Below are positions 1,407 through 22,565 of a DNA stretch of 24,531 nucleotides, piece after piece. Source of the DNA: a virus; IMG/VR virus record IMGVR_UViG_3300021962_009186, positions 1 through 24,531 of that record, one strand, 5' to 3'. Within the stretch, counting starts at the first letter, position 1, and each line of letters starts with the position of its first letter. Made by a program: the position numbers and the translations under genes. The notes beneath the pieces were generated by a model. The model had not been told where the DNA came from. It did no database searches and saw nothing but the letters and a program-made list of their open reading frames with translations.

Positions 1407-2246
1407 TTAATCAAAATAGCGGGCCTTGATGACCTCAGCGAAATTCCTGTGATGTGTCTCACTGGGATGCATGTCGTTTTCTGCGGGTGGAATACTGGGA
1501 TCTAGTATGGTGTAGGCTGAGTCATAGTCTACATCTAGGGTATACCAAGTCTCGGGATCGGGTATGGTGTAGGGATCACGCAGGCTGGGTTCTAGATCAG
1601 ATCTAGCGAATTCCAACTGACGCAGCACTGGCTGTGTTTCCACTGATAGGTGTATGACCCTGGCACCTGTGTTTTCTAACAGACCCGAGACAGTCTGCTG
1701 CAGCACTAGATTGTTGTAGTATCTATTATAGACACCTCGGGGATCCAACTGATTCTTGGCCGTGGCTTCTACGTAGTCCTGTATGAGTTGATCTTCGTCG
1801 GGGCTGCTGGCCGTGCTTTTGCTGACTCCAAACAGTTTGTTAAATCCCAGCATCACTGTACGCCAACCCCAGTCGGGATGTGCGATGTTACAAAAGGGCA
1901 CTGCGGTTCTTGCGGGCCATTGTAGGCTGAGTCTGCTCAAATAGGTCCACATCACTATCACTGTGTCTTCGGGCTTGATGTCTCGAACGTTCACCACACA
2001 CTGCCGTGCTATCTGCTGGAAACAGCTGCCGCGACGAGCATAGTTTACCACGTCTAGGCCCAAAGATCTAGCCAGCACAGCGGGCCAAGCATACTCACTG
2101 GGCTGATATAGGTGTATGTCCGACCAATCTACATCTACATCCGCAAGGCTGGTCATGGGACGGCCTTGGCTGTCCAGCACGGGTTTGACCACATCGGGCA
2201 GGGCAAAGCCCTGGGTTATAGAACAGCCAAAGGTACGCAGCGTCAT
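1407..2246 (-). CDS. SGNH/GDSL-like hydrolase
   Basis: A 279-residue protein with N-terminal FGCSITQGF, matching the SGNH block I nucleophile motif with Ser9 in GCS rather than GDS, and C-terminal ENDMHPS (about 256-261), matching the block V Asp/His region, followed by THHRNFAE. A hydrophobic strand VIVMWTYLSRL (about 95-105) sits where block III is expected. Family members are esterases, lipases or carbohydrate deacetylases. In a phage this could act on host polysaccharide or modify a virion glycan, but the substrate cannot be read from sequence. No signal peptide is visible. The start codon overlaps the previous gene's stop by 4 nt (ATGA), so it is translationally coupled to the 2243-2680 gene and ends at a terminator. 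Confidence 0.7.
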   Translation of the reverse strand: MTLRTFGCSITQGFALPDVVKPVLDSQGRPMTSLADVDVDWSDIHLYQPSEYAWPAVLARSLGLDVVNYARRGSCFQQIARQCVVNVRDIKPEDTVIVMWTYLSRLSLQWPARTAVPFCNIAHPDWGWRTVMLGFNKLFGVSKSTASSPDEDQLIQDYVEATAKNQLDPRGVYNRYYNNLVLQQTVSGLLENTGARVIHLSVETQPVLRQLEFARSDLEPSLRDPYTIPDPETWYTLDVDYDSAYTILDPSIPPAENDMHPSETHHRNFAEVIKARYFD

Positions 2247-2680
2247 CTATAGAGATAGTTCACCGACGTTTCATTTTCACGCCACTTTTCCGCACCGTTT
2301 TTAAGGTGGAAGCGTTCAGCCATTTCTGTCTTGGGACTCAGTGTGACGTAGGTCATGACTTCGGGATGTGTTTTTTTAATTTCGGCCTGTGCTTCTTCTA
2401 TCAGCCTACGGCCCGCACCCGCAGCATATGACCATATGGTATAGAACACCGCAGTATTGGTGTTCACAACTGTGTCTACCAGTTCTTCTACTCGAGTGGG
2501 CACAGATTCTAGGAATTTCACACAGACCACTGCGGTGGGCTCCTGTGAAACATCGTCTTTGAGCACGAAGATAGTGCTGTTTGAATTGATTCTTTGTTCT
2601 AGGGGAATCTCAGGTCTCACAGGGTCGTCCTTGACTAATCTTGTGAGATCGTCCCCTAGGTCTCTGATGATGTGTAGCAT
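2243..2680 (-). CDS. GNAT-like acetyltransferase, probable
   Basis: A 145-residue protein, within the usual size range for GNAT proteins. The central part AVVCVKFLESVP resembles the beta4 strand. YAAGAGRRLIEEAQ (about 85-98) resembles the acetyl-CoA-binding R/Q-x-x-G-x-G/A loop and following helix. TYVTLSPKTEMAERFHLKNGAEKW resembles the closing 'A..fY...GF' region. The acetyl-acceptor is unknown. A perfect late promoter and a strong ribosome binding site (AGGGGG, about 6 nt before the ATG) precede it. It is followed with a 4-nt overlap by the SGNH hydrolase, an acetyltransferase-hydrolase pair in one late unit, which would fit addition and removal of an acyl group. That pairing is inference. 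Confidence 0.55.
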   Translation of the reverse strand: MLHIIRDLGDDLTRLVKDDPVRPEIPLEQRINSNSTIFVLKDDVSQEPTAVVCVKFLESVPTRVEELVDTVVNTNTAVFYTIWSYAAGAGRRLIEEAQAEIKKTHPEVMTYVTLSPKTEMAERFHLKNGAEKWRENETSVNYLYR

Positions 2681-3767: not shown

Positions 3768-4004
3768 TTATTTAGCCCATCTCAGGTGATAGTTTAATAA
3801 TGTCTGATCATTGTAGAATTCCGCGATCAAACGGCAGTACATGTCGCGACGCTCTAGCATTAGCTGGCAGTTTTCACGCTGTTGATCCAGCAGCCACCGG
3901 GTCTGTGCCAGTCCTATGGTTTTGTGTACTTTGGGCCAATCTATTTCTATGTTTTCGCCTTCGGAAGGTAGCCAACGATACAATTCTACTGCTTTACTCT
4001 TCAT
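3768..4004 (-). CDS. small unknown protein after gp41
   Basis: A 78-residue protein, mostly helical and charged, with an N-terminal acidic segment (SEGENIEIDWPKVHKTIGLAQTRW) and a Gln/Arg-rich helix (LLDQQRENCQLMLERRDMYCRLIAEFY). It overlaps the 3' end of the helicase gene by 11 nt, so it is probably cotranscribed and coupled with gp41. I recognise no family. A role next to the replisome is possible from position only. Confidence 0.6.
   Translation of the reverse strand: MKSKAVELYRWLPSEGENIEIDWPKVHKTIGLAQTRWLLDQQRENCQLMLERRDMYCRLIAEFYNDQTLLNYHLRWAK
3769..3776 (-). promoter_or_regulatory. late-promoter-like GCTAAATA
   Basis: The minus strand reads GCTAAATA, then ATGG, then the ATG at 3764. 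The element overlaps the last codons and stop of the 3768-4004 gene. The spacing predicts transcription starting at or beside the start codon. Confidence 0.4.
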
Positions 4005-5418
4005 CTTGTGTTAGGTTATTGATAAACTGTTTGAGCTTGGTGCTTTCTACGATGGCTTTGGGTGCGGGTCCTAGGCTAGATCCTCTGCTGGGGTCTATGA
4101 CACCGTCTTCATCTACTACTGTTGAAGTACGGCTCTTGATCTGGCTGATGATCTGGCTGCTACGTGCCTGTGATTCCTGCTCCTGCTGATCTTCGGGTAG
4201 ATCAGTGATCCTTAGCGTTTCTATGTTGTACTCTAGATCTATCTTTTGTCCTACACCCGATGATGAACGAGTCTTCATCAACTGTAGCTGATAGCGTCCA
4301 CGCTCACGCATAGCCCTGGAGGTAAAGATACCAAAAACGTTGTCTGCGGTCTGGATCTTTGAAAGTCCGCCGGATATATGGCTGTGATCGAATTCCACTT
4401 CTTCCACAGCACCGCGATTCAGCTGTGCGGCAGTGACAAACACACACTGTTTTTCCATGGCCAAGTTACGCAACTCTTCTGACACAAACTTGTCTTTGAT
4501 GAATAGATCTGCGGGGCTAATCTTCTTAGAGATAGGCATCAATAGATCCATGTAGTCTACTAGGAGTACATCTACCCTGCGTCCAACTTGTATTTCATAC
4601 TCTTTGAGATAGGCACGTATGTCATTGACAGTCTTGCCTGAGGGCATATACTTGACCTGGAATAGGCCTGCTTTCTTACCCACCAGTTTGACCTTCATTT
4701 CAATGTCATCGATGTTGCGGAAAATCTCTTTAGTGCTGACACCTGTGAGCATGGAATCGATACGCATACTGACCAATGCTTCTGAAAGTTCCAGGGTTAG
4801 ATAGACCACGTTCATGCCGTTCAACGCCCAGTTAACACCAAGGTTGGCTAAGAACAGACTTTTACCCGCACCTGAGCCACCTGCGAAAATGTTCAGTTCT
4901 CCGCGGTTCATTCCGCCGAACAGTCTACGATCCATGCTAGACCAACCTGTACTGACCTGTCCATTCTTGTCTTTGAGCCCCATCAGACGTGCTCTGGGAT
5001 CAGCAAAATAGTCAGTGCCCATATCACGAGCAAGGCCAATCTGTACCGCTTCTTTGATCTTGGCCTCCACTTGACCATAATCATGTTTTTCTAAGAGATC
5101 CGCAGATTCAATAATCGCACGTTCTAGACTCTTGTGTCTAGTGAACTGTTCGAACTCATCCATAAACCAATTTAGATGCCCATCTTTAAGATCACCAGGA
5201 TCTTTGAGTTCGGTACCGCAGGTAGCATTGACCATTTCAAACTCTGGCAATACTGTATACTGTTCTGCGTACTTGTGTAGGAATTCAGCAGCTTCTTGTA
5301 GTTTCCTATCGAACAGAGTGTAGTCAAAGATGCCTTGACAGCGTACAAATGTTTCTGCGTCAGACATCATTATTTCTAGATACAACTTCTGTACGTCATA
5401 ATCGTAATTCTTAGACAT
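3994..5418 (-). CDS. 41: replicative DNA helicase, T4 gp41-like (DnaB family)
   Basis: A 474-residue protein, matching the length of T4 gp41 (about 475). Hexameric 5'-3' helicase that unwinds the fork and partners with primase gp61. The N-terminal helical domain spans about 1-130. The RecA-like core has TGWSSMDRRLFGGMNRGEL (about 157-175), Walker A GGSGAGKS (180-187, K186), the DnaB-type catalytic Glu E210 in YLTLE, Walker B VDVLLVDYMD (282-291, D288), TAAQLNRG and HISGGLSKIQTADNVFGI typical of DnaB proteins. The C-terminus is Gln/Ser-rich and acidic. It has its own sigma70-type promoter inside the end of the carbamoyltransferase gene and lies downstream of the primase in the same orientation. 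Confidence 0.95.
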   Translation of the reverse strand: MSKNYDYDVQKLYLEIMMSDAETFVRCQGIFDYTLFDRKLQEAAEFLHKYAEQYTVLPEFEMVNATCGTELKDPGDLKDGHLNWFMDEFEQFTRHKSLERAIIESADLLEKHDYGQVEAKIKEAVQIGLARDMGTDYFADPRARLMGLKDKNGQVSTGWSSMDRRLFGGMNRGELNIFAGGSGAGKSLFLANLGVNWALNGMNVVYLTLELSEALVSMRIDSMLTGVSTKEIFRNIDDIEMKVKLVGKKAGLFQVKYMPSGKTVNDIRAYLKEYEIQVGRRVDVLLVDYMDLLMPISKKISPADLFIKDKFVSEELRNLAMEKQCVFVTAAQLNRGAVEEVEFDHSHISGGLSKIQTADNVFGIFTSRAMRERGRYQLQLMKTRSSSGVGQKIDLEYNIETLRITDLPEDQQEQESQARSSQIISQIKSRTSTVVDEDGVIDPSRGSSLGPAPKAIVESTKLKQFINNLTQDEE

Positions 5419-5441: not shown

Positions 5442-5470
5442 ATTATACACTCTTATAAGTTGGTCAGCAA
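5442..5470 (-). promoter_or_regulatory. sigma70-type early promoter for gp41
   Basis: On the minus strand TTGCTG (5465-5470) and TATAAT (5442-5447) are separated by exactly 17 nt. The -10 element is a perfect consensus and lies 23 nt before the ATG at 5418, giving a leader of about 16 nt. The -35 region lies inside the 3' end of the carbamoyltransferase gene. This looks like an early promoter used by host RNA polymerase. Confidence 0.7.
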
Positions 5471-6391
5471 CCGTTCATCAATCCGTATCCTGGTATCCAA
5501 TGACAGTAGAGCAGCACCGATGGCACTGCTGGGATCACCGGGATTAGACAACCGCCATACGCGGTCCCATTGTTTATCTAGGTATTGATTGTATTGGCTG
5601 TTCATAGCACAGCCGCCCATATATACCAAATTCTTGCTGTCAGATAAACGCCGGGCTATCAACATGACCATGTCTGCCTGTTCTTCGAATACTCGTTGTA
5701 CGGCAGCGGCGATGTCGTATTTGTCCTGCTCTGTAACGATAGGCCACGGCCAATCTAACACACCACAGTGTAGATTATATCTTAGACTAACAACACCGTT
5801 GAAATAATCTTTTACAGTTTCGTAGTATTTTTTTGGATCGCCTCGTTGGCTGTCTTTCTGTAATAAATGTTCTTCGGCTACGGGCTTATAACCAATTAAC
5901 TGGGTGAACGCTGAATAGAACATGCCTAGGCTATCTGGATAACTGCGACTCCATAATTTCTTAAGTTCTTTGCCCTGCCCTTGCCAAATAGATGCTGATT
6001 CCCATTCCCCCATGGCATCTAACACTACGATAGTCGCAGAATCGAACGGGCTAGTATAGAATCCTGCGGCAGCGTGACTTTTGTGATGAGGAAAATATCT
6101 GACCTTAGCATAGCCTAGATTGCTTTTCTTTAACCATCTGCTAGGCAATACATTCATGTCAAAGGCCGCGGCATATTGGCCCGCATACAACTGACGAGTT
6201 TTCTTTAGCCAAGGTCTTTCATACCATGCGATTACGCTAGGACCACGACCACCTGAACCATCGATGGATCTGCGTATAAGGTCAGAATCTCTGTCACGAC
6301 CTTTGACAGATTCAAATCTTTTTAATTGATACCCTTCAAACACCGCTATGCTGATATCGTGATTGAGAGCGTTTATTCCCCAGGTAATCAT
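5453..6391 (-). CDS. single-domain carbamoyltransferase (NodU/TobZ Kae1-like domain)
   Basis: A 312-residue protein matching the N-terminal Kae1-like domain of NodU/CmcH/TobZ O-carbamoyltransferases. HHKSH (102-106) fits the metal-binding His motif, followed by VVLDAMGEWESASIW (D125). GYKPVAEEHLLQKDSQRGDP (167-185) aligns with the family's GEGKxMGLAxYG segment but is diverged. DIAAAVQRVFEE (226-237), YMGGCAMNSQYN (257-268) and NPGDPSSAIGAALL (283-296) fit the other core motifs. Full-length relatives have about 550-600 residues with a C-terminal YrdC-like domain that makes carbamoyl-adenylate. That domain is absent here and no room for it remains before gp41. The gene lies in the primase-helicase block, so a DNA or nucleotide acceptor is more plausible than an antibiotic. 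The start overlaps the 30-aa peptide by ATGA. Confidence 0.8.
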   Translation of the reverse strand: MITWGINALNHDISIAVFEGYQLKRFESVKGRDRDSDLIRRSIDGSGGRGPSVIAWYERPWLKKTRQLYAGQYAAAFDMNVLPSRWLKKSNLGYAKVRYFPHHKSHAAAGFYTSPFDSATIVVLDAMGEWESASIWQGQGKELKKLWSRSYPDSLGMFYSAFTQLIGYKPVAEEHLLQKDSQRGDPKKYYETVKDYFNGVVSLRYNLHCGVLDWPWPIVTEQDKYDIAAAVQRVFEEQADMVMLIARRLSDSKNLVYMGGCAMNSQYNQYLDKQWDRVWRLSNPGDPSSAIGAALLSLDTRIRIDERLLTNL

Positions 6392-6480
6392 TTGTAGATA
6401 AAAGGATCTCTTTTACGCAGTTCTTTAATGCGTTTACGATACCTTAGCCAATCTCTAAATCTTCTCCATAATTTAAACAT
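6388..6480 (-). CDS. 30-aa highly basic peptide between primase and carbamoyltransferase
   Basis: The minus-strand ATG at 6480 opens 30 codons that begin MFKLWRRFRDW and end RKRDPFIYK, with 13 Lys/Arg against 3 Asp/Glu. It exactly fills the gap between two genes: it overlaps the primase stop by 8 nt, and its TGA overlaps the carbamoyltransferase ATG (ATGA). From memory, marine T4-like phages carry similar tiny proteins ending in a KRDPFIY-like tail, but I cannot check this. The amphipathic, Arg/Trp-rich sequence suggests binding to nucleic acid, membrane or a replisome protein. Its position suggests cotranscription with primase from the promoter at 7487-7515. Confidence 0.7.
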   Translation of the reverse strand: MFKLWRRFRDWLRYRKRIKELRKRDPFIYK

Positions 6481-7480
6481 TATCTTGTACCTTTTTATCA
6501 AACTTGTTCTTATATAAATTTATCCGTATCGCTCCCTGCTGTGCTGTTTTAATAGCATCAACGATCACAAACAGACTACCATATTTTTTCACAGCATCCG
6601 AGCAGTCTTTTACATCATCGCTCCAATTAGGAAAGGCCACTGACCAATCCCACTTTAGAGCATGTTCGATCAACTTGCTGCCTGCTCGATCTTGGTCGGG
6701 AATCACTATGACTTCTTTACCCATCTTATTGATCAGTCTAGCCTGATTCTCAGATATTTCATTATGTAACAATGCTACACCGTTGACTGCCATAGCATCG
6801 AACGGGCCTTCGACTACGAATAGATATCGTTGGTCTTGTGTTATAGCATCTAGATTAAACACGAAATTAGGATGTTGGTCTGACAGGTATTTAGGTTTGC
6901 CGTCACGGACTTTTCTAGCAGTCCAACCTACAACTCTACCACCGTAGGTAAATGGAACGATAACTCTATCTTTGATATCCAGCGGCGTCCAGTAGAATCT
7001 AGGATCTAACGGATCACAGTCCCTACCTACGAGATAACTGACTACTTCTGCTAGCTGTGCGTCAAGTTCTTGATCTAGTTCTTGATCTATCCATTCAGAT
7101 ATGGGTAAGGCACCTTCTGGTAATGCTTTGTTGGCAAAGTCAATGAGCTCACGATCTGGTGTACGATCTTCTGCGCCGCCTTCGGATTTCATAGCTTCAA
7201 AGACCATCATATTGATGTCATCATCTGGGGCACCTAGCCAAATCATCAATTGCCTTAATTTTTGGCTGATCTGTCTACCAGGTTTCCAACTAGCTGTATA
7301 GCCGCAGTTAAAACAGTTAAAGACTAACCCGTCAGAAAATTTCACTCCGCCACGCTGCCGTGTATCAGTGTTTTCTCCTCTATGATGACAACAAGGAGCA
7401 TCAAAACTGATCCAGCCACTAGGAGTCTGCTTCTTTTTATAAGGAAGATGTTTGCGAAAGATGTCTACGACCAGAGCCAT
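6473..7480 (-). CDS. 61: DNA primase, T4 gp61-like
   Basis: A 335-residue protein, close to T4 gp61 (342). It makes RNA primers at the fork with helicase gp41. The N-terminal zinc ribbon has ligands in PCCHH (C30/C31, H32/H33) and CFNC (C56, C59). The TOPRIM domain has E224 in FVVEGPFDAM and D262/D264 in VIPDQDRAG; YLSDQHPNFVFNLDA upstream is typical of DnaG-type primases in phages. The start at 7480 is preceded by a perfect sigma70-type promoter whose -10 lies 6 nt before the ATG, so the mRNA is probably leaderless; no ribosome binding site is visible. It is followed by the 30-aa peptide with an 8-nt overlap. Confidence 0.93.
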   Translation of the reverse strand: MALVVDIFRKHLPYKKKQTPSGWISFDAPCCHHRGENTDTRQRGGVKFSDGLVFNCFNCGYTASWKPGRQISQKLRQLMIWLGAPDDDINMMVFEAMKSEGGAEDRTPDRELIDFANKALPEGALPISEWIDQELDQELDAQLAEVVSYLVGRDCDPLDPRFYWTPLDIKDRVIVPFTYGGRVVGWTARKVRDGKPKYLSDQHPNFVFNLDAITQDQRYLFVVEGPFDAMAVNGVALLHNEISENQARLINKMGKEVIVIPDQDRAGSKLIEHALKWDWSVAFPNWSDDVKDCSDAVKKYGSLFVIVDAIKTAQQGAIRINLYKNKFDKKVQDNV

Positions 7481-8358: not shown

Positions 8359-8937
8359 TCAACTGTATCCGTAGCTGATCTTTTCGCAGATCAAGTTCAT
8401 TTGTACTACGATAGCAGTAGCATAGGCTATAGCGTGGCTTTTCTTAAAATAGTAGTCATCGTTCTCCGGTTTCGTCCACACTTCCTTCATCACCGTAGTC
8501 CATTCTTTCCCAATCAGATAACGTTTCGCTGGTCTGATCATTGCCAGTACTGCGGCTAATTGCTCTATAGATCTTGGTTTGCTTTGTCTCAGAATAGACC
8601 CATGCCCATTCACATGAAATAGGAGTTGGGTAAAGTCGTCTTGTTCCAATAAGTCCCATAGCGGTTCTGTCTCCATAAGTTGAATGAGATGCTCTTCATC
8701 TCGTACATCTTTGTAAACGCTTACATTTAAAAAGTCGATCTTAAAATATTCTTTTTCTTCTGCCGTTTCATATTCAAAAGAACAGATATTTTTGACAGCA
8801 TCAACCGGTACAGCGTGTAAGTACACACCTGTGTTGTGCGGCACTAGTTCTGATCGATCAAGCCGGCTAGCCTTGACATGTTTAATAACAGACAGGGCCT
8901 TGTTACGGTCTTCAAAGTCGATATCGATATCTGGCAT
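8359..8937 (-). CDS. miniature DnaE (DNA polymerase III alpha) core-like protein
   Basis: A 192-residue protein that reads like a compressed DnaE catalytic region in the right order. MPDIDIDFEDRNK (1-13) matches the DnaE PDxDxDF motif carrying two catalytic Asp. HNTGVY (34-39) matches HAGGVV. YFKIDFLNV (64-72) matches KFDFLGL, with D68 at the third catalytic position. LWDLLEQ...LFHVNGHG...KPRSIEQLAAVLAMIRP (93-136) matches the fLxxxxTxgvFQleS...pxxfedliAlvALyRPGP stretch. YFKKSHAIAYATAIVVQMN (163-181) matches FNKSHAAAYA. Real DnaE has about 1,100 residues; the PHP, most fingers and C-terminal domains are missing. Whether it polymerises is unknown. It is the last gene of the nine-gene early operon and overlaps the previous stop by one base (TAATG). 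I recall similar phage proteins annotated as hypothetical. Confidence 0.75.
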   Translation of the reverse strand: MPDIDIDFEDRNKALSVIKHVKASRLDRSELVPHNTGVYLHAVPVDAVKNICSFEYETAEEKEYFKIDFLNVSVYKDVRDEEHLIQLMETEPLWDLLEQDDFTQLLFHVNGHGSILRQSKPRSIEQLAAVLAMIRPAKRYLIGKEWTTVMKEVWTKPENDDYYFKKSHAIAYATAIVVQMNLICEKISYGYS

Positions 8938-10799: not shown

Positions 10800-11305
10800 C
10801 AGAATAACTTGTCCAATTGTAGTACTTCACTCTGTCTAGAAATTTCTTTGACAAAAAATACACATGGTGGTGATTCTCCGTCCCTGATAGGTACAGTTAG
10901 CAGTTGATTGTTTTTCATCTTAGGAAAATACCATTTAACATCATTGTATATATTGATGATTTCGATAGGCAGATACTCTGGCCTAAATCCGTTGATCGGA
11001 TTCAAACTAAATGCTTCAAACCCTCGCTCATTAATACTAGTCAACGGCAAGACTTCGGGATCCATGCCACACTCTTTATCACCGACTACCATACTCCAAT
11101 CTAAAGGCATCTGTATCTCGTGGCCTCCGATTTTCATAACGATAGCAGGTGCGTTGAAAGATTCTAAAAAGATAAGAGGGACAAAATAAAAATCCGGATC
11201 ACTGGTATTGCTATTGTCTAATACTGAAAATCTCGTATCTTCTTCTACTTCTTCCGGCAATTCGTTTAAATCGAATGCTTCATTTTTTAATGTTAATATT
11301 CTCAT
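10799..11305 (-). CDS. conserved phage protein downstream of UvsW
   Basis: A 168-residue acidic protein with an N-terminal FDLNELPEEVEEDTRFSVLDNS and beta-rich segments (YFVPLIFLESFNAPAIVMKIGGHEIQMPLDWSMVVGD; VKWYFPKMKNNQLLTVPIRDGESPPCVFFVKEI). I recall the pattern 'PLDWS..v.d' in proteins of marine T4-like phages with no function. It overlaps the 3' end of UvsW by 4 nt, so translation is coupled. It may be a partner or regulator of replication or late transcription, but nothing in the sequence proves that. Confidence 0.6.
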   Translation of the reverse strand: MRILTLKNEAFDLNELPEEVEEDTRFSVLDNSNTSDPDFYFVPLIFLESFNAPAIVMKIGGHEIQMPLDWSMVVGDKECGMDPEVLPLTSINERGFEAFSLNPINGFRPEYLPIEIINIYNDVKWYFPKMKNNQLLTVPIRDGESPPCVFFVKEISRQSEVLQLDKLF

Positions 11306-12759
11306 ATGGTTACCTTGTTAATATTGAAAGGATAGTGAGCATCCTTGTAAAATTTCTTTCGCTCTGTTAAATGACGCTTGGCATATTTCGTACCCCCGGT
11401 TATGTCCCAGATTTGTACGAAGTCTTTGTCTTCTGCTTTTCTAATACCTCGCCCAATGCTTTGTATAACGCGGACAAAGCTCTTTCCGGGTTCCACAAGA
11501 ACCAGATTAAAAATCCTAGGGATATTAATACCCACAGCGGCCACACCGTAAGTCGCCACAATAATCTTGTTATCACTTGTTTTAATTTCATCATAGCTTT
11601 CTTTTCTGTCTTTGGTCTTGACGGACCCGCTGATAAAGTCCACATCTTTTAACCTTTCTTGTAACATCTTTCCTGTTTCTATACGATCGATCAATACTAG
11701 AGTATTTCCTGATGAGGATATACTTTTGATCCTTTCTGCCATCCAATCTATACGTGAGGAATCGGTAACTAGATATTTCAATTCTTCGGCATAACTTCTA
11801 AACTCTTTAATTTCAATAGTCTGTAGTACTTCAACGTGACATTGTGCTAATACATTTTTCTGTTGTAATTCGTGTGCTGAAATCTTGTTAATAACAGGCC
11901 CTATGCTGGCTAAGATACTCTGGAACTCAAATTTTTCTTTAGGGATAGTTCCAGTCAGTCCCCATCTTATAGGACAGGTTGCTAGATCTCTAGTTAATAT
12001 ATTTTTCAATACTTCTGCTTTGGCTTGATGAACTTCATCAACGATAAAAGCAACAACTCCGTTTAGAAAATCTGCTAAAGTCATCGCGTCCGGATCATCT
12101 TTACTTTTCTTATCTAATACATTTAGACTCTGCCAAGTACAGATAGTGTGTGTTTTTCCTAGTTCTTTTCTATCACCGTAATAGACACCTACGTCTAGGC
12201 CAACGTTGCGGAAATCTTCTTCAGTCTGTTCGACTAATGATTTATTAGGCACAACTACCACAGACCTGCCATACTTTTCACAGCAATGACTCAGGGTCGC
12301 AGTAGTAATCGTTTTACCAGCACCAGTTGCGATTTCCTGTAGGCATTGTGGGTTCTCTAAAAACTTGTTGATAGCGTCATATTGATAATCTCTCAACATG
12401 ATAGGCTTGCCTGCCTCGGGATGTCCCTTAGGCCAAGTTACTCCTTGGTCGGCCCAATAGGTTTCTGTGACTTTTTTGAACTCTAGTTGTACAGACCTAC
12501 GTTGATCCTCAACGTCTATTTCATAGCCATCATTGGTTACTATTTCTAAGATTTCTTCAAGGTGGCACATATAGCCTGTACCGCCTATGCCAAAGAAAGC
12601 CACAGTGCCATCCCAACGTCCCAACCTGTAGGAAGGTTGATATCTTGCCCACGGCACGTCGACTTTAAACTTATTGGCTAACTTACGTCTTGTTTCTAAC
12701 GATAGCCCTTCGAGTTTGACATTTACCTCATCTCGGATTATTAATTTACAACTCGACAA
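11302..12759 (-). CDS. uvsW: UvsW-like superfamily 2 helicase
   Basis: A 485-residue protein, near T4 UvsW (about 500). UvsW remodels branched DNA and R-loops, shifting replication from origin-dependent to recombination-dependent initiation. The N-terminal domain (1-115) includes YRLGRWDGTVAFFGIGGTGYM. Motifs: Q-like RDYQYDAI (123-130), Walker A TGAGKT (145-150), motif Ia VVVVPNKSLVEQ, DEVH box (241-244), motif III GLTGT (267-271), motif V VATYGVAAVGINIP (401-414), motif VI VIQSIGRGIRK (431-441). It overlaps the upstream 399-aa gene by 14 nt and the downstream gene by 4 nt. Confidence 0.93.
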   Translation of the reverse strand: MSSCKLIIRDEVNVKLEGLSLETRRKLANKFKVDVPWARYQPSYRLGRWDGTVAFFGIGGTGYMCHLEEILEIVTNDGYEIDVEDQRRSVQLEFKKVTETYWADQGVTWPKGHPEAGKPIMLRDYQYDAINKFLENPQCLQEIATGAGKTITTATLSHCCEKYGRSVVVVPNKSLVEQTEEDFRNVGLDVGVYYGDRKELGKTHTICTWQSLNVLDKKSKDDPDAMTLADFLNGVVAFIVDEVHQAKAEVLKNILTRDLATCPIRWGLTGTIPKEKFEFQSILASIGPVINKISAHELQQKNVLAQCHVEVLQTIEIKEFRSYAEELKYLVTDSSRIDWMAERIKSISSSGNTLVLIDRIETGKMLQERLKDVDFISGSVKTKDRKESYDEIKTSDNKIIVATYGVAAVGINIPRIFNLVLVEPGKSFVRVIQSIGRGIRKAEDKDFVQIWDITGGTKYAKRHLTERKKFYKDAHYPFNINKVTI

Positions 12760-13980: not shown

Positions 13981-13990
13981 GTCTTTGCTT
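13975..13990. promoter_or_regulatory. inverted repeat AAGCAA-GTCT-TTGCTT in the divergent promoter region
   Basis: A perfect 6-bp dyad with a 4-nt centre lies between the early promoter of the minus operon and the late promoter of the plus sugar operon. It could be an operator for a regulator. On the minus strand it is followed by six T (TTGCTTTTTT), so it also has the form of a rho-independent terminator that would stop transcription entering from the plus-gene side. Its left arm doubles as the -35 of the minus promoter. Confidence 0.45.
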
Positions 13991-13993
13991 GCC

Positions 13994-14001
13994 AATAAAT
14001 A
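13994..14001 (+). promoter_or_regulatory. late promoter AATAAATA for the plus sugar operon
   Basis: The plus strand reads AATAAATA, fitting the NATAAATA late consensus of T4-like cyanophages. The ATG at 14018 follows after 16 nt that include a strong GGAGG ribosome binding site (14008-14012). It predicts late expression of the five or six genes to 18085. Confidence 0.6.
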
Positions 14002-14017
14002 TCAATTGGAGGATCAT

Positions 14018-14833
14018 ATGAGCAGAAAATTCGCTGTAGTTACAACATTCCACGAAGCAGGATATAAGAAATACGGTCGTAGGATGATTGAAACCTACCT
14101 AAAAAACTGGCCTTCAGAGGTCACTCTTTATCTATATCCCGAAAAAGTCAATCCGACTGTGCCCGACCATTCCAGGATAGTATTGACAGACTTAGATACA
14201 GGAGTTCCGGACTTGAAAGCATTCAAAGACAAGTGGCGAGATGTGCCACATGCCAATGGTGACATTTCAGGAGTACCGAGACTAGCATCGAGAAAAGACA
14301 GCCACAAGCCGTTTAAGTGGGATGCTGTGAGATTCGCTCACAAAGTCTATTCAATTTTCCACTGTGCTAAAAATTGTGACGCCGATGTGTTGATTTGGAT
14401 GGATGCCGATACCATATGCCATAGTCCTATAACTATGGAGCAGATAAATTCTCTAATTCCCGAAGACCGAGATATCTGCTTCCTAGGTCGAAAAGGTAAA
14501 TTTTCAGAATGCGGTTTGTATTCTATGAATCTGCGTTCCCTACAGACAACAAGTTTCTTAAGAGAATTCCAACGCATGTATGATCGAGCAGAAACTGGAA
14601 TTTTTTATCTCGACGAATGGCATGACAGTTTTGTGTTTGATGCTGTGCGCCGAAAGCTGCCCTTCCTACAGTCCTTAGACTGGAGCAGCCATCTAATCAT
14701 AGGTGAAGGACATCCGCTGATCAACAGTGCGTGGGGAGCATATCTTGATCATCTCAAGGGAGATCGAAAAGACCTAGGCAAGAGCCTTAAAAAGGACCTC
14801 AGGATCGCAAGGAAAGAAGCATACTGGCAATGA
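14018..14833 (+). CDS. glycosyltransferase with DxD motif
   Basis: A 271-residue protein starting MSRKFAVVTTFHEAGYKKYG. The GGAGG ribosome binding site 5 nt upstream fixes the start here rather than at the in-frame ATG at 13985. VLIWMDADTICHSP (124-137) carries the DxD metal/nucleotide-sugar motif (D129, D131) of a GT-A fold. CGLYSMNLRS and the C-terminal GHPLINSAWGAYLDHLKGDRKDLGKS are features I recall from phage-borne glycosyltransferases. The donor and acceptor sugars are unknown. It resembles the gene at 16864 (same N-terminal logic, LxWLDADxxTxxxI core). It overlaps the next gene by ATGA. Confidence 0.75.
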   Translation: MSRKFAVVTTFHEAGYKKYGRRMIETYLKNWPSEVTLYLYPEKVNPTVPDHSRIVLTDLDTGVPDLKAFKDKWRDVPHANGDISGVPRLASRKDSHKPFKWDAVRFAHKVYSIFHCAKNCDADVLIWMDADTICHSPITMEQINSLIPEDRDICFLGRKGKFSECGLYSMNLRSLQTTSFLREFQRMYDRAETGIFYLDEWHDSFVFDAVRRKLPFLQSLDWSSHLIIGEGHPLINSAWGAYLDHLKGDRKDLGKSLKKDLRIARKEAYWQ

Positions 14834-15507
14834 AAAGTTTTGTGATCTTTCAAAATCAGATCGACATGAGTGTAAAATTCGCTCAGGAAGCCGTCGAAGA
14901 GGCAGGTAAATTTGGTATTTTTCTTAGGGGGTGGGTAGGCAGCGATGGTCTCAAAGATCAACATAAGTTTGAGCAGTATGGTATCAAGAATTTCCTCCAG
15001 GACAAGATAGAAAAATTGCCAGGAGTCAAAGGTTGCTTTCTTAGTCACTACGAATTGTGGAAAAAATGCCTAGATGAAGGCGAAACTTTTCTAATTCTTG
15101 AGCACGACGGAATTTTTATCAGAGAACTTCCTAAAGACATAGAGGATCATTTTGATCATGTACTAAATCTTGATCCTTATGATCAGTTCAGCGAGGACTA
15201 CAACGAAAAAATTGAAAAAAGTCTGTCAATGCCGGTAAAAATACAAGAAGCCAAGACATATGATCATGACAAGGCAGGTATGTATCTTCGCGGTGCTTAT
15301 GGTTATCTAATTAAACCTCAAGGTGCTGAAAGATTGATCAACTTTGCTCATGATAAAGGTGCGTTGCCCACTGACAAACACATAGGCACCGCAGTCGTTG
15401 ACATAAAAACCACTTCTGTGCCTGTGGTTAGGCTACATAAATTTTTTAATATGAAAAATTTGAGAAAATTTAGTCTTACAAAAAACTTAGAGAAATTTAC
15501 AATATGA
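14830..15507 (+). CDS. GT25-family-like glycosyltransferase
   Basis: A 225-residue protein. GVKGCFLSHYELWKKCLDEGETFLILEHDGIFIREL (65-100) matches the core of glycosyltransferase family 25 (LPS galactosyltransferase type: G..GC..SH...W......... .iLEDDa), with EHDG in place of EDDA. GAYGYLIKPQGAERLINF and the aspartate after ALPTDKHIG match the second half of the family domain. The substrate is unknown; family members add Gal or Glc to LPS. It overlaps both neighbours by ATGA, so the plus arm is translated as one unit. Confidence 0.75.
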   Translation: MKSFVIFQNQIDMSVKFAQEAVEEAGKFGIFLRGWVGSDGLKDQHKFEQYGIKNFLQDKIEKLPGVKGCFLSHYELWKKCLDEGETFLILEHDGIFIRELPKDIEDHFDHVLNLDPYDQFSEDYNEKIEKSLSMPVKIQEAKTYDHDKAGMYLRGAYGYLIKPQGAERLINFAHDKGALPTDKHIGTAVVDIKTTSVPVVRLHKFFNMKNLRKFSLTKNLEKFTI

Positions 15508-16211
15508 ATTACGAAAAAAAAATTTATAGTCAACACGGAGAAGATGGCATTATTGAGTTTTTAATCTCTAAATTAAAAAAATCAGAAAAAACTTTTTTAG
15601 AAATAGGTTATAGTGCAGGCTTACAAAATAATACACTAAACTTGTCAAAAAACCATGATTGGACAGGAGTTGGTTTTGATTACCGAAAACAAATCGTGGC
15701 TCCGCCGAAGGGCGTGACGGTTATTACAAAATGGTTAGACATAGATTCTATTGATTTTATTTTGAGTCAAAGCGGAACTGATATAGACTTTTATTCTATA
15801 GATATAGATAGTATTGATTTTTGGTTAACGGTAGGTTTATTAGACAAGGGGTTAAACCCGAAATTTGTTTGTGTAGAAATATGCGGAAGTGCTGGGCCTA
15901 ATGTGTCAGTGGCTCCACCGATTAGAGAAGGGATCAGATATAATAAATTTTATATAAATGGTGCTTCAATAGCTGCTTGGAAGAAATTTTGGAATCACCG
16001 AGGATACGATTTTTTAACTGTAGATTCTAGCGGTATCAACGCATTTTTTTATAAAAAAGAATACTTTGACGATAGTATAGATACATACCCAACAATCGAT
16101 TGGATCCAACCTAAAAAGTTTTTAGATTTTGAAGAATGGAAGAAAGTTTTTACTGCTCAGGCGACTTTAGAAGAATCTTCGATAACTGGCAATGAGAGAT
16201 TATTTAAATGA
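15504..16211 (+). CDS. FkbM-related methyltransferase-like protein
   Basis: A 235-residue protein opening with IYSQHGEDGIIEFL (7-20) and FLEIGYSAG (31-39), the form seen in FkbM-related 'SQ.gED' proteins that often sit in surface-polysaccharide clusters. The usual SAM-binding glycine loop is weak (EIGYSAG), while FYSIDIDSIDFWL (97-108) matches the internal acidic strand. IDSIDF occurs twice (80-85, 101-106). The DNA is markedly AT-rich compared with the first arm genes, suggesting separate origin. It probably methylates a sugar or is an inactive relative. Confidence 0.6.
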   Translation: MNYEKKIYSQHGEDGIIEFLISKLKKSEKTFLEIGYSAGLQNNTLNLSKNHDWTGVGFDYRKQIVAPPKGVTVITKWLDIDSIDFILSQSGTDIDFYSIDIDSIDFWLTVGLLDKGLNPKFVCVEICGSAGPNVSVAPPIREGIRYNKFYINGASIAAWKKFWNHRGYDFLTVDSSGINAFFYKKEYFDDSIDTYPTIDWIQPKKFLDFEEWKKVFTAQATLEESSITGNERLFK

Positions 16212-16867
16212 TTAAATTAAACGAATATTGGCATGTACCAGAAATCGACTTTATATCAGAAAAAGTAAAAAATTCTAACGAAGAATCAAATTACGAAATG
16301 GTGTTTAGAAAATTTGTTAAAGAAAATCATCCTAATAAAAATGTAATGATTGATATTGGAGCAAACATCGGAATTTACTCTAGATCATGCTCGTCGTTTT
16401 TTAAGGAAGTCCATGCGTTTGAACCGGTTGAAAAAATTTTTAATTGTTTGAAAAAAAATACCGAAAACTGTAATAATGTTTTTTTATATAAATGCGGTAT
16501 AGGTACACGAGAAACAGATGCTAGATTCTTATATAATAAAAAGAATTGTGGAAACACAAAACAAATAACAGAATCAAACATAACAAATGAAAATATTTTT
16601 TTATCAGAAATATATCCACTTAATACATTTAAATTTGATGATGTTAATTATATTAAAATCGATGTAGAAGGATTTGAAATTCAAGTACTAAAAAACTCTA
16701 AAGAAATCATCGAAAGATTTATGCCATGGATACAGGTAGAAGTTAACACAGACTTAGCTGAAATTCAGAATGTAATAAAATCCTTCGGCAATTTCGATAT
16801 TATTGACTTAAAAAATAAACATAACAAACTTTTTGTACCGACAACCGGAAAAAATATTTTAATATGA
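16208..16867 (+). CDS. FkbM-family SAM methyltransferase
   Basis: A 219-residue protein with a complete FkbM pattern: VMIDIGANIGIYS (46-58) for SAM binding, VHAFEPVEKIF (68-78), LYKCGIGT, and YIKIDVEGFEIQVLKNS (148-164). These enzymes usually O-methylate sugars or natural products. The 4-nt overlap with both flanking genes, and a second FkbM-like gene directly upstream, suggest methyl capping or decoration of the glycan built by the neighbouring glycosyltransferases. AT-rich, like the adjacent genes. Confidence 0.8.
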   Translation: MIKLNEYWHVPEIDFISEKVKNSNEESNYEMVFRKFVKENHPNKNVMIDIGANIGIYSRSCSSFFKEVHAFEPVEKIFNCLKKNTENCNNVFLYKCGIGTRETDARFLYNKKNCGNTKQITESNITNENIFLSEIYPLNTFKFDDVNYIKIDVEGFEIQVLKNSKEIIERFMPWIQVEVNTDLAEIQNVIKSFGNFDIIDLKNKHNKLFVPTTGKNILI

Positions 16868-17571
16868 AGTATCAAATAATTACAGGAATGTCAAAAATCT
16901 ATTTTGAAAGTATCGGACAACATATGATCGATTCTTGGCTTAGACATTGGCCTTCTAATTTTAATTTAAAAATTTATTCCGAAGACAATTTAAATATATC
17001 TAATAAAAGATTAGAAATAATATCGTTAGACAAGTTTGGTATAGAATATCATAATTTTCAAAACTCTAATATTGTTAAATTAAATGCTAGATCAAAAACA
17101 TTCGCTAAAAAAGCATGGCCGATAATGTCACACTTAGAAAAGAATACTGGTAGATTAATATGGTTAGATGCTGATGTTATAACTCAAGATACTATCACAG
17201 AAGAATGGTTAGACTCTCTCTTACAGCCTAATGATTTTAGTTGCCACTTAGGGGTTCCTCAAGACCAATACTATTCTGTAGAGACCGGCTTTTTTATTAT
17301 TAATTTAGAAAATAAATTTAAAGACGAATTTCTTAAAAAATACAAAGAAATTTATTATAACAGAGATTTTTCAAATATGAAAAAACCATTTGACGGTGAT
17401 GTCTTTGGTCGAATAATAACTGAAATGAAGACTGATAAGAATTTTGTGTTTAATGATTTAAGTCCGTCTCTTGACAGTTTCAGTCCATTTAACAAAGTGT
17501 TTAAAAATAAAATGAAACACTACAAAGCAAAGAAAAAGCTATCTTTTATAAGTGATGATCATGCCGTCTAG
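16864..17571 (+). CDS. glycosyltransferase, paralogue-like to the 14018 gene
   Basis: A 235-residue protein. GRLIWLDADVITQDTITEEWL (96-116) contains the DxD motif (D102, D104) and matches the WMDADTICHSPIT segment of the 14018 gene. Both start with a short strand and then a Y..y....idsWl.hWP motif (GQHMIDSWLRHWPSNFNLKIYSE here). GVPQDQYYSVETGFFIINLEN continues the GT-A pattern. The sugar is unknown. It is AT-rich and overlaps the methyltransferase after it by 11-20 nt depending on that gene's start. Confidence 0.7.
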   Translation: MKYQIITGMSKIYFESIGQHMIDSWLRHWPSNFNLKIYSEDNLNISNKRLEIISLDKFGIEYHNFQNSNIVKLNARSKTFAKKAWPIMSHLEKNTGRLIWLDADVITQDTITEEWLDSLLQPNDFSCHLGVPQDQYYSVETGFFIINLENKFKDEFLKKYKEIYYNRDFSNMKKPFDGDVFGRIITEMKTDKNFVFNDLSPSLDSFSPFNKVFKNKMKHYKAKKKLSFISDDHAV

Positions 17572-18085
17572 TTCAAAAGAAGGAAAATCTGAAATCGTCG
17601 AATGGTGTCGTCAACTTTCTAATGTTGACAATATTTTAGACATAGGTGTAGGAAAAGGAACATATATACACCTCCTAAAAAAGAAAAAACTTTTTAGAGA
17701 ATCATCCTGGTCTGGTATCGAAGTCTGGACACCCTATATAGAAAATTATAATCTTAAAGAATTCTATAACACGATCATAAACGAAGATGTTAGGAAAGTA
17801 AATTTTGACAAATTAAAATTTGATCTGGTTTTCATGGGAGATATTTTAGAACATATGACCAAGGAAGAGGCTATCCAGTTAGTTACAAAACTTTCTAATA
17901 TATCAACTTATTGTGTTATTAGCATCCCTATCGTACATTATCCCCAAGGAGAAGCATTCAATAATCCTTTTGAAAAACACGTCAAAGACGATTGGAGTCA
18001 TCAGGAAGTCTTAGAATCTTTTCCTAATATAATAAAGACTTTTCAAGGAAAAAAGATAGGTTGCTATCTATTGAAATTTAAATAA
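17561..18085 (+). CDS. class I SAM-dependent methyltransferase
   Basis: A 174-residue protein from the ATG at 17561; an in-frame ATG at 17552 would extend the overlap with the previous gene from 11 to 20 nt. NILDIGVGKGTYIHLL is motif I. FDLVFMGDILEHMTKEEAIQLV fits the motif III/IV region with the 'D.lEH' pattern of small-molecule methyltransferases. CVISIPIVHYPQG follows. The substrate is unknown, probably sugar or lipid-linked given the cluster. Its 3' end overlaps by 8 nt the convergent gene at 18078, so the two arms of the sugar cluster meet with no spacer or terminator. Confidence 0.7.
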   Translation: MPSSSKEGKSEIVEWCRQLSNVDNILDIGVGKGTYIHLLKKKKLFRESSWSGIEVWTPYIENYNLKEFYNTIINEDVRKVNFDKLKFDLVFMGDILEHMTKEEAIQLVTKLSNISTYCVISIPIVHYPQGEAFNNPFEKHVKDDWSHQEVLESFPNIIKTFQGKKIGCYLLKFK

Positions 18086-19001
18086 ATTTTTTGATGTGTT
18101 GCCAGGCTTGGCCACTAGCCGCTTCTTCGTTGTTCCAGTGGCTCATAGCAATCTTCTCAACCCACTGCTGTCTTTCTGGCAGTATCGGAGTTTCTATCAT
18201 TGAGAGATTATGATTACTTACTTCGAATGCTTGACTGACTCTAGGATTAGGATCTGTTACGAAAACCGGTATTCCTTCTATAGCAGCAGCTACCGCTGGG
18301 CTACTGTTATATGTGATAACTGACCAAGCATTCCTAAAATCATCGACTATAGAACTGTTTGAGCTCACAGTATATAAACCTTGTTTGTTGTTTGACATCG
18401 CAGTTTCCTTAGAACCTTTAGCACCTGGATGCGACCTAACAACTATCGGTCTATCAGAATATTTTCTGATCTCTGATATAGTGTTATTCAACCATTGATA
18501 GACATCTAGTCCGCCCATCGACCAACCCCCGGGCCTCTGCGTACATATCAATATATGATTTCCGTTGGTATGCCAATCTTTAAGACTTATACGTTGATCA
18601 CGACTGATCTGTTTCCAACGATTGGGATCTACTTCGTCCCAGAAATAGTTAGCTGTTGTAGGAAACACTCCATCAAAGCTGTATCTTAGATATCTATCTT
18701 TATTCGTAGGATCTGAATAGTTGAACAGATTGCTATCAACTACCAGTGTATGTTTTCTTTTTATTTTTTGATGCTGTATGGCAGCTTTCCTGACTAGTAA
18801 ATGCGGACTGTTGTCGCTGCCTTGATGTACCCATCCTTGGATGAAAGCAACATCACAGTCTATCATGGTCCTTGCCTGTTGTAGATATCCATCGTCGCCG
18901 GTTTTTTGAACGCCTGAAATAAATCGAGAGATTATTTCTCTTTTGTGTTGATTTTTAATACCCGGCGGTATTCCAGAAATATAACCAACTACCTTAATCA
19001 T
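18078..19001 (-). CDS. capsule-type polysaccharide biosynthesis protein
   Basis: A 307-residue protein that reads like a capsule/Kdo-type glycosyltransferase (GT-B-like): IRKYSDRPIVVRSHPGAKGS, SSIVDDFRNAWSVITYNSSPAVAAAIEGIPVFVTDPNPRVSQA and a C-terminal 'W....a...W...E...G..W'. The NSSPAVAAAIEGIPVF stretch is the donor-site-like loop also found in the 19905 gene (FNSVAAVESIFHGIPVF), so the two are probably paralogues. The N-terminal MIKVVGYISGIPPGIKNQHKREI suggests an alpha/beta start. The sugar is unknown. It overlaps the pyruvyl transferase by 4 nt and is the last gene of the minus arm. Confidence 0.65.
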   Translation of the reverse strand: MIKVVGYISGIPPGIKNQHKREIISRFISGVQKTGDDGYLQQARTMIDCDVAFIQGWVHQGSDNSPHLLVRKAAIQHQKIKRKHTLVVDSNLFNYSDPTNKDRYLRYSFDGVFPTTANYFWDEVDPNRWKQISRDQRISLKDWHTNGNHILICTQRPGGWSMGGLDVYQWLNNTISEIRKYSDRPIVVRSHPGAKGSKETAMSNNKQGLYTVSSNSSIVDDFRNAWSVITYNSSPAVAAAIEGIPVFVTDPNPRVSQAFEVSNHNLSMIETPILPERQQWVEKIAMSHWNNEEAASGQAWQHIKKFI

Positions 19002-19912
19002 AGTCGTTGAACTTTTTTCCAGAATTCTTCAGTAACAGACACACACTCGTCTATAGCATATTCATATGTTTTTGTTTTGTCGATAGCATCAGCTATTTTT
19101 TCATTCTTTAACAATACATACGGTTTGTGTTTTAATAATTGGAATTTAGAACTCCACACATCAGTTAAAATCACACGCTTACCTAATAATGTTCCCCAAT
19201 ATACACCGTGGAAACTATTAGTTACGATGATATTCGCAGATCCTAATATTTCAATAGTTTGCTCTATATTACTACCTGTGTTCATAAATCTCGGCATAGG
19301 AATATCTCCGAAATCTTTAGTCAACTGCTTCTTGTGTTCAAACCAGATAATATCATTTTTAATTTCGTATTTTTTTCTTAATGCCGGATGCATACAACTA
19401 GCACAAGGTGCCCATTCATAAGTTTGTCCAAAATCTCTAATTCCTACGAGATCGAAATAATTGAGATATTCAGGATAGGTTATCAATGATGCTTTCTTAG
19501 AAGGATCATCGTTGTGTCCAGCACCCCAAATGATTTTTTTAGATTTATCGGAGGATAAACTTTTCAGTGTATGATTTACTAGATTAGAAAATTGTTCAGT
19601 GAATTGTCGATGAAGTTCTGAATTTTTCGGATCATTTAGCAGCCATGAATTTTTTCTAAATGTTGATAACTGAGCACGATCACCACCGCCTATGACTGAT
19701 AAAAGTTTATCAAAATTACTGTTAGAAATTAGGCCACCTCCGCCTACGATTATCTTTGTATCAGGATTGATTTTAAAATCAACGGGCCATTCGTCTAAAT
19801 CGATACTATGATATTGATCTTTAGTTAAAAAATATTGTAAAGGATCTGACGCCATGTCTCCTACATTATTTTTGTCTTTTCTATGTATTACTAGATATTT
19901 TATATCAGCCAT
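18998..19912 (-). CDS. polysaccharide pyruvyl transferase family protein
   Basis: A 304-residue protein typical of the polysaccharide pyruvyl transferase family (WcaK/CsaB-like). NNVGDMASDP (15-24) near the N-terminus, KIIVGGGGLI (53-62), IIWGAGHN (127-134), FDLVGIRD (153-160) and IIVTNSFHGVYWGTLLGKRVI (228-248) appear in the family order. Members move pyruvate from phosphoenolpyruvate onto a sugar to form a ketal, giving a negatively charged glycan. It is surrounded by glycosyltransferases, so capping or decoration of the phage-encoded glycan is likely. It overlaps the 18078 gene by 4 nt and the upstream gene by 8 nt. Confidence 0.8.
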   Translation of the reverse strand: MADIKYLVIHRKDKNNVGDMASDPLQYFLTKDQYHSIDLDEWPVDFKINPDTKIIVGGGGLISNSNFDKLLSVIGGGDRAQLSTFRKNSWLLNDPKNSELHRQFTEQFSNLVNHTLKSLSSDKSKKIIWGAGHNDDPSKKASLITYPEYLNYFDLVGIRDFGQTYEWAPCASCMHPALRKKYEIKNDIIWFEHKKQLTKDFGDIPMPRFMNTGSNIEQTIEILGSANIIVTNSFHGVYWGTLLGKRVILTDVWSSKFQLLKHKPYVLLKNEKIADAIDKTKTYEYAIDECVSVTEEFWKKVQRL

Positions 19913-20696
19913 TTAATATTCTCCACACACTGCCGTCTTTCATTTCATTGTAACTAAACTGACCATAGGCCAAATGACAACCCCAGGCAAATAATTTATC
20001 ACTGTCAGGGTAATAGGGTTCTTCGATACGGCTCAGATCCTGTAAGCTCACTGGACTAGCAGCGTTACAAGGTGCTAGTGTAAACACTGGTATGCCGTGG
20101 AAGATGCTTTCTACAGCAGCTACGCTATTAAATGTGACTAGAGCAAATACATCGTTGTCGAGCGCCTGTTGTAGTGTGTCTGTGGTAATTCTATCTATTC
20201 TAAGTTTAGCACGTTCCCTGATTTGTACAGGTCGATCAGTGTATTGTTTAATCTTTTCTACAGTTTCTTTAACCCACATGTCTTTATCTATGCCATAAAA
20301 TTTACAGGGTTTTTCATCGGGAGCAGCGATTAATATCTTACTGCCTGTCTTTTTCCAAGGTTGGAATTTTTTATTGAATCGTTGGAATCGATCAGCAGGT
20401 CTAGGAATTATGTCGCTGTGCTGTAGATTATTCTTGACTATGCGGTGCCATAATTTCCAACCGTTGGGATTAGATTTGGTTTTCTCGTTCCCGAAGTAGC
20501 CTGTGTCAACATAATAAAAATCTCGATGGTCTCTCCAACAATTTTTCATTATCTTGTCTTTGAGAATTCCTCTAAGGACGATTGGATCTTTACTATGCTC
20601 GTAGACAAAATCGTCGGTGTTAACTAATGTTCCTTTAGAACCTCGACAAAATTGATTGATGTATTCGTCTTGTCCGTTCTTACTTAAGAATATCAT
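19905..20696 (-). CDS. capsule-type polysaccharide biosynthesis protein
   Basis: A 263-residue protein related to the 18078 product. IKQYTDRPVQIRERAK matches IRKYSDRPIVVRSH. FALVTFNSVAAVESIFHGIPVFTLAPCNAASPVSLQDLSRIEEPYYP matches the ITYNSSPAVAAAIEGIPVFVTDPNPRVSQ region, and the C-terminal FSYNEMKDGSVWRIL matches the 'E..sG.aW' end. Probably a GT-B-fold transferase acting on a capsule-like sugar. It overlaps the GT8 gene upstream by 17 nt and the pyruvyl transferase downstream by 8 nt. Confidence 0.65.
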   Translation of the reverse strand: MIFLSKNGQDEYINQFCRGSKGTLVNTDDFVYEHSKDPIVLRGILKDKIMKNCWRDHRDFYYVDTGYFGNEKTKSNPNGWKLWHRIVKNNLQHSDIIPRPADRFQRFNKKFQPWKKTGSKILIAAPDEKPCKFYGIDKDMWVKETVEKIKQYTDRPVQIRERAKLRIDRITTDTLQQALDNDVFALVTFNSVAAVESIFHGIPVFTLAPCNAASPVSLQDLSRIEEPYYPDSDKLFAWGCHLAYGQFSYNEMKDGSVWRILNG

Positions 20697-21366
20697 GCTG
20701 TTGGCAATGTTCCGTTAACACACGTTCTCTATGCCATTCGTTGGCAAAACTTCCTTGTGTGGCGAATTCATGGAAGCATGGAGTTCCTAACGTGTAGTGT
20801 ACTAATTTAGCGTTAGGATTATAGTCATATTCGACATCTAGCCAATTCCACTCGGGAGGTAATTCACCGATGCGATCATCGTCTAACCAAGTGAATCTAT
20901 GTAAATCTGCTCCTGTGGCTTTCATCACAAATTCTGGTGTTAACTTTCTATTAGGAAAACTATTACAGTTCCATAGTATAACACTTGACCAATTTTTTCT
21001 AGGATAGTCTTCATTTTTTGAACCTAGATACTTTACAGGCATTTTTGTTTTATAATCGTGCTTGACAACTTGTACATCCTTGCCCATTTGCCTAGCGTCC
21101 CATAATTCTGCGATATCGCCTCGAACTATCATGTCGCCGTCGATGAATATAGCATGTCCTGTCCAGTTCATAAGATAAGGAACTAGAAATCTAGTATAGA
21201 TAAAATGATTACTACCGTCGGTATGTGTTTCTGTGTAATCTTTAAAAAGATTAAGTGCTACTGGTATGATGCTTACTGGCCTACTGGCATTTCTAATAAT
21301 ACTGTTTACACAGGTATGATATGCGATCGCTTCTCTAGGATCGTATCCAATAAAAATCGGTATCAT
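20680..21366 (-). CDS. GT8-like glycosyltransferase
   Basis: A 228-residue protein with the glycogenin/LgtC-type (GT8) pattern. IPIFIGYDPREAIAYHTCVNSI is the N-terminal nucleotide-binding strand. TRFLVPYLMNWTGHAIFIDGDMIVRGDIAELWD (58-90) has the D76-G-D78 metal motif. VILWNCNSFPNRKL, RIGELPPEWNW and KLVHYTLGTPCFHEFA (H190 as the second metal ligand) complete the fold. These enzymes move hexoses with retention from UDP-sugars. GT8 proteins of this form are, from memory, common in marine T4-like phages. It overlaps the upstream methyltransferase by 4 nt. Confidence 0.8.
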   Translation of the reverse strand: MIPIFIGYDPREAIAYHTCVNSIIRNASRPVSIIPVALNLFKDYTETHTDGSNHFIYTRFLVPYLMNWTGHAIFIDGDMIVRGDIAELWDARQMGKDVQVVKHDYKTKMPVKYLGSKNEDYPRKNWSSVILWNCNSFPNRKLTPEFVMKATGADLHRFTWLDDDRIGELPPEWNWLDVEYDYNPNAKLVHYTLGTPCFHEFATQGSFANEWHRERVLTEHCQQHDILK

Positions 21367-22534: not shown

Positions 22535-22539
22535 AGTCA

Positions 22540-22547
22540 TATTTATA
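22540..22547 (-). promoter_or_regulatory. consensus late promoter TATAAATA within the sugar operon
   Basis: The minus strand reads TATAAATA, exact T4-type late consensus, then TGACT, then the ATG at 22534. It lies in the 25-nt gap between the epimerase stop (22566) and the fusion gene. The mRNA would start at or next to the ATG, again leaderless. It can drive the minus sugar arm as late genes independently of the epimerase. Confidence 0.7.
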
Positions 22548-22565
22548 AGGGCAGTTTATTGGCTT

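Follow-up and report, generated by a model that had tools for sequence, protein, structure and literature searches.

Family C DNA polymerases are usually regarded as large, single-chain bacterial replicases. The locus analyzed here, therefore, raises the question of what a protein of only 192 amino acids that displays the motifs of the bacterial replicase DnaE is doing among the replication genes of a virus. The protein is encoded in a 24,531-nucleotide stretch of viral DNA (hereinafter, the window), and both the window phage and its relatives are T4-like. The initial annotation, made from the sequence alone, took this protein for a miniature of the DnaE catalytic core. The homology to the DnaE core holds but the protein encompasses only half of that core, and in related phages the remaining part, the one with the GxGRGS motif, is the product of a distant gene. 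The open reading frame (ORF) most likely encodes the C-terminal one of the two proteins that together make up a minimal Pol III alpha specific to phages (hereinafter, these proteins are called the N half and the C half; Table 1).

Table 1. Features of the replication gene block in the window
Feature	Position	Strand	Remarks
T4 gp41-like DnaB-family replicative helicase	3994..5418	-	
T4 gp61-like Toprim primase	6473..7480	-	
Protein, 153 aa	7493..7954	-	Slot annotated as 'virion structural protein' in several relatives
Convergent ORF, 123 aa	7987..8358	+	phrog_11637; abuts the 3' end of the C half
Probable C half of split minimal Pol III alpha	8359..8937	-	192 aa; DxDxD metal motif, third Asp in KIDFL, finger motifs IRP and FKKSHA
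PDIDIDF motif at the extreme N-terminus of the C half	8913..8937	-	D3 and D5 correspond to E. coli D401 and D403; marks the split point
ORF, 70 aa	8937..9149	-	Directly upstream, overlaps the C-half start (TAATG); small ORF in this position in most relatives
Zinc-finger-like protein, 235 aa	9149..9856	-	phrog_11058; in the conserved block
Protein, 157 aa	9816..10289	-	phrog_11758
Protein, 168 aa	10799..11305	-	phrog_11279; adjoins UvsW
UvsW-type helicase	11302..12759	-	One end of the conserved block

Homology of the C half to DnaE

The protein starts with MPDIDIDFEDR, and all the DnaE motifs quoted in the initial annotation are present in the translation. Searches with the single sequence produce only weak signals in Pfam (PF07733, E=0.029; PF17657, E=0.074) and in the PDB (phmmer, 0.23); among the PHROGs, the protein matches phrog_11778, annotated as 'DNA polymerase' (2.1e-68), and phrog_405 (1.5e-9). 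The profile search against DnaE that the initial annotation proposed as a check was performed with hhalign, which aligned the C half with a seven-sequence DnaE profile (E=2.8e-8) across positions 510-643 of E. coli DnaE, with PDxDxDF (399) and FNKSHSAAYA (738-768) in the same linear order as in DnaE. The AlphaFold2 model of the C half (mean pLDDT 91.1) is related to DnaE as well: in a Foldseek search of the PDB, each of the best 14 matches is the alpha chain of a family C polymerase (Pol III alpha), and beyond these, there is only noise (probability <=0.03). The TMq values of the Pol III alpha matches reach only ~0.4-0.5, which reflects the loss of the thumb and of most of the finger region of DnaE: 29 residues separate D5 from H34, compared with ~108 in E. 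coli DnaE. The likeness of this protein to DnaE is real, a chance motif match being ruled out by the profile, structure and conservation tests.

The conservation of the C half was assessed with 94 homologues drawn from phages and viral contigs, among which identity to the window protein drops to ~35%. The three catalytic-type aspartates, D3, D5 and D68 (D401, D403 and D555 of E. coli DnaE), are invariant in all 94 sequences, as are K66 (K553), R135 (R639) and H168 (H760) as well as the equivalents of E. coli D405, H511, G514 and P640, and the finger motifs IRP and FKKSHA are largely invariant. The median pairwise dN/dS is 0.08. The C half, thus, evolves under strong purifying selection, and its active-site residues are important.

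Relatives of the C half are found in at least 550 stretches of viral contigs and, as initially suspected, sit in databases as hypothetical proteins; the C halves of phages Atu_ph07 and Phosso are 53-55% identical to the window protein. A close bacterial source was rejected: bacterial genome contigs yielded no close parent, only full-length DnaE with identity of 31% or less. The annotation of Atu_ph07 places the start of the C half further downstream, so that the DxDxD motif is cut off.

The N half and the breakpoint

In DnaE, the pol beta-type nucleotidyltransferase signature comprises GxGRGS and, ~40 residues downstream, DxD. The chain of the 192-residue protein starts right at PDIDIDF and lacks the part of the palm with GxGRGS, which binds the triphosphate. 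Searches with PF07733 detected a second protein, of ~155-210 amino acids and containing GxGRGS, in 17 of the 18 large records with a C half. This N half matches PF07733 with E~1e-11, aligning to profile positions ~12-97, that is, the part just before the DxD, and carries GVGRGSSVASYVLYLIG, with GxGRGS invariant. In all 17 N halves examined, the C-terminus lies 35-37 residues past the start of the GxGRGS motif. The N half ends at the equivalent of N393 of E. coli DnaE (hhalign, E=1.3e-11) and the C half starts at the equivalent of position 399, which places the breakpoint between FLN (393) and MPDFDVDF (399) in every phage. Without the GxGRGS part of the palm, which is separately encoded in the relatives, the 192-residue protein is not expected to be a polymerase on its own, so that the stand-alone minimal polymerase, one of the options offered in the initial annotation, was discarded.

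The genes for the two halves are 11-224 kb apart, and none of the 105 C-half loci contains a fused N+C frame, which disposes of the possibility that a fused version exists in some of these phages. In the 24.5-kb window, neither GxGRG[SAC] nor GRG[SA] occurs in any frame; the window is a fragment, and its own N half may lie outside. When modelled alone, the N half reaches a pLDDT of 70, with the worst values in the GxGRGS tail (mostly below 65), and this model, too poor for a fold search, gave no fold match. The poor folding of the lone chain suggests that the N half might depend on the C half, whose beta-sheet it would complete. However, the alignment depth was also modest, so that the model is only suggestive in this respect.

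Co-occurrence of the two halves

In the phage collection, 63 records have a C half and 60 have an N half by tblastn. The three records with the C half only are Slicko01, where an HMM search does detect the N half, its relative Slickus01, the status of which comes from tblastn alone, and the 109-kb W12-3, which is probably a partial record. Three large contigs (238-353 kb) were tested starting from the N half, and each of them carries the C half as well; in one 280-kb contig with a C half, which may be incomplete, the N half was not detectable. Given the long distance between the halves, searches for the N half in contigs shorter than ~200 kb are not informative. The split pair, together with part of the gene block, is also present in the 141-kb Alishewanella phage OQ508956 and, therefore, is not confined to jumbo genomes.

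In RefSeq, both halves are named simply 'DNA polymerase' in the annotated phages (NC_042013, NC_019526), so that automatic counts would assign extra polymerases to such phages.

Gene neighborhood and the accompanying replication genes

The C half belongs to a block with the conserved order uvsW ... zinc-finger protein, small ORF, C half, convergent ORF, 'structural' protein, primase, helicase. This order is kept across phages of Agrobacterium, Sinorhizobium, Pseudomonas, Klebsiella, Salmonella, Vibrio and Salicola, that is, from alphaproteobacterial to enterobacterial hosts, with XacN1 as a partial exception. The 70-residue ORF upstream of the C half has no PHROG match. The convergent phrog_11637 ORF is on the opposite strand within an otherwise one-directional replication block, and its position and orientation are kept in nearly all relatives examined.

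A family B polymerase of the T4/gp43 type is encoded in all 18 large related records, as the initial annotation expected of T4-like phages; in the window, which is a fragment, none is visible. The loss of the PHP and other DnaE domains, also noted at the outset, extends beyond this single ORF: PHP (PF02811) and HHH_6 (PF14579) are absent from 17 related records, so that PHP or tandem-HhH fragments were dropped from consideration as further pieces of the enzyme. Of 17 records, 10 encode an epsilon-like exonuclease, and none of the four that belong to the same clade as the window does, which argues against an obligatory epsilon partner.

Relationship to known family C polymerases

The initial annotation considered a family C fragment unexpected in such a phage. 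Such a protein is not new: a phage-specific minimal Pol III alpha has already been described in group 2.2 jumbo phages by Iyer et al. 2021 (PMC7824862) as an enzyme split into an NTP-binding and a Mg2+/template-binding protein encoded by distant genes. These authors proposed, from sequence, that the halves likely reconstitute the enzyme, which perhaps cooperates with the family B polymerase, either in repair or in synthesizing one of the strands. The earlier genome papers on CBB (PMC5259590) and Atu_ph07 (PMC6102473) noticed the N half alone, as a truncated alpha subunit, and the PHROGs list both halves as DNA polymerase (phrog_11778 for the C half and phrog_11127 for the N half). A search of the later literature, with most subscription papers outside its reach, found no biochemical test of the split enzyme. 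What is known as the 'split DNA polymerase' in phage MIJ3 (PMC6892783) belongs to a different system, a family B enzyme split by an intein.

The window gene, which comes from an uncultured relative, is a further member of this published family, and the idea is already known. As in the system of Iyer et al., the C-terminal protein contains only the Mg2+-ligand aspartates and the template-binding subdomain, the N half is encoded separately and far away (17 of 18 large relatives; not in the window fragment), other Pol III alpha domains are lacking (in 17 related records) and a family B polymerase is encoded alongside (18 of 18 related records). Unlike the jumbo phages of that study, the Alishewanella phages that also carry the pair have 141-kb genomes, below the jumbo size. 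The present analysis adds the constant breakpoint, the co-occurrence of the halves, the lack of a fused frame, the conservation and purifying selection, the synteny with uvsW, gp61 and gp41, and the occurrence in 141-kb phages.

The split enzyme shares with bacterial DnaE and PolC the palm fold and the key motifs (D401/D403/D555, K553, R639, FNKSH and GxGRGS), but the set is complete only across two chains, with the Asp triad in the C half and GxGRGS in the N half. In contrast to DnaE and PolC, it lacks the PHP, thumb, tandem HhH, OB and clamp-binding domains; the chain is broken between positions 393 and 399 of E. coli DnaE, and the two halves together amount to about one-third of DnaE. Phage G and c-st, which Iyer et al. 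place in group 3.2, likewise encode a family C polymerase, in their case a full-length DnaE. These DnaE proteins are, however, host-like, contain the PHP domain and serve as the main replicase according to PMC7824862, whereas phages with split Pol III alpha also encode a family B polymerase.

Proposed mechanism and alternatives

Considering the homology of both halves to DnaE, the constant breakpoint, the co-occurrence, the intact active-site residues, the purifying selection and the shared replication gene block, the N and C halves probably assemble into a single active site. The triphosphate-binding segment with GxGRGS (hG[GS]-type) would come from the N-terminal protein, the gene for which lies elsewhere on the genome. 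The C half would contribute the two metal ligands of DxD along with the third catalytic Asp, the lysine of KxD and a truncated fingers/template region. Each half would be inactive alone, and the assembled enzyme would be a family C catalytic core of ~350 amino acids without the PHP, thumb and C-terminal domains. Given that the gene belongs to a block with the gp61 primase, the gp41 helicase and UvsW, and that gp43 is the replicase, the pair might extend primers or fill gaps in short, non-processive stretches (in lagging-strand start-up or repair) and then hand over to gp43. Such templated extension or gap filling near the primase and helicase, followed by hand-over, is a tentative proposal to which we give somewhat less than even weight; templated synthesis is not assured because the pair lacks the DnaE regions that form the thumb and bind the clamp. 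The patchy distribution of the epsilon-like exonuclease and the 280-kb contig with a C half but no detectable N half also weigh against the two-protein polymerase.

The deletion of the thumb and the greater part of the fingers speaks for a non-templated nucleotidyltransferase formed by the two halves, which would add nucleotides to primer ends, RNA or another small or protein substrate, and many stand-alone pol beta-fold transferases resemble such a minimal core. This alternative appears rather unlikely considering that the pair retains, largely invariant, the IRP and FKKSHA motifs, the DnaE counterparts of which make contact with the template or the incoming nucleotide, and that the gene is located beside the primase and helicase genes.

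The initial annotation also entertained a decoy, an inhibitor or a protein that binds primer ends, none of which is favored given that the metal-site and NTP-site residues are invariant in both halves. Shut-off of host DNA synthesis is a feature of T4-like phages, and the protein does mimic part of the host DnaE, so that a mimic of the DnaE palm could conceivably sequester the beta clamp, tau, DNA ends or dNTPs. This seems quite improbable because the catalytic residues are invariant in the 94 homologues and the dN/dS is low, the clamp-binding and tau-binding surfaces of DnaE lie in domains absent here, and a decoy has no need for a co-inherited complementary half with GxGRGS. A decaying relic of a captured bacterial dnaE, to which the missing domains and the broken gene might point, is barely credible in view of the strong purifying selection on the C half, the retention of both halves with the same breakpoint across very different phage genera, and the lack of any bacterial relative other than the distant full-length DnaE.

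The split minimal Pol III alpha, then, is the preferred reading, and its most far-reaching version is that the two ~20-kDa proteins comprise the smallest known template-directed family C polymerase, one that starts strands for the family B replicase at phage forks. In this version, which is possible but which we consider doubtful, the pair would be dedicated to primer extension or gap filling, by analogy with the hand-over from DnaE to PolC or from Pol alpha to Pol delta. If true, the two-chain core of ~350 amino acids would define the minimum for family C catalysis, and two unrelated replicative polymerases would share one viral fork. The fixed breakpoint and the full conservation of the active site make reconstitution a clear experiment.

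Other genes in the window

Several genes outside the polymerase locus deserve mention. Between the gp61 primase and the gp41 helicase, which are directly adjacent in most annotated relatives, the window encodes a protein with a NodU/Nol-like carbamoyltransferase N-domain (5453-6391, minus strand). A 145-residue ORF (2243-2680, minus strand) matches, above the cut-off, the malonyl-CoA decarboxylase C-terminal (acetyltransferase-like) domain, which is unusual in a phage. Adjoining the replication genes is a glycan gene block of ~9.5 kb (13985-23531) that encodes GT25, GT8 and GT2-like transferases, an FkbM methyltransferase, a pyruvyl transferase, a cytidylyltransferase-cupin fusion and an NAD epimerase, which suggests a phage-carried surface-sugar or glycosylation pathway.
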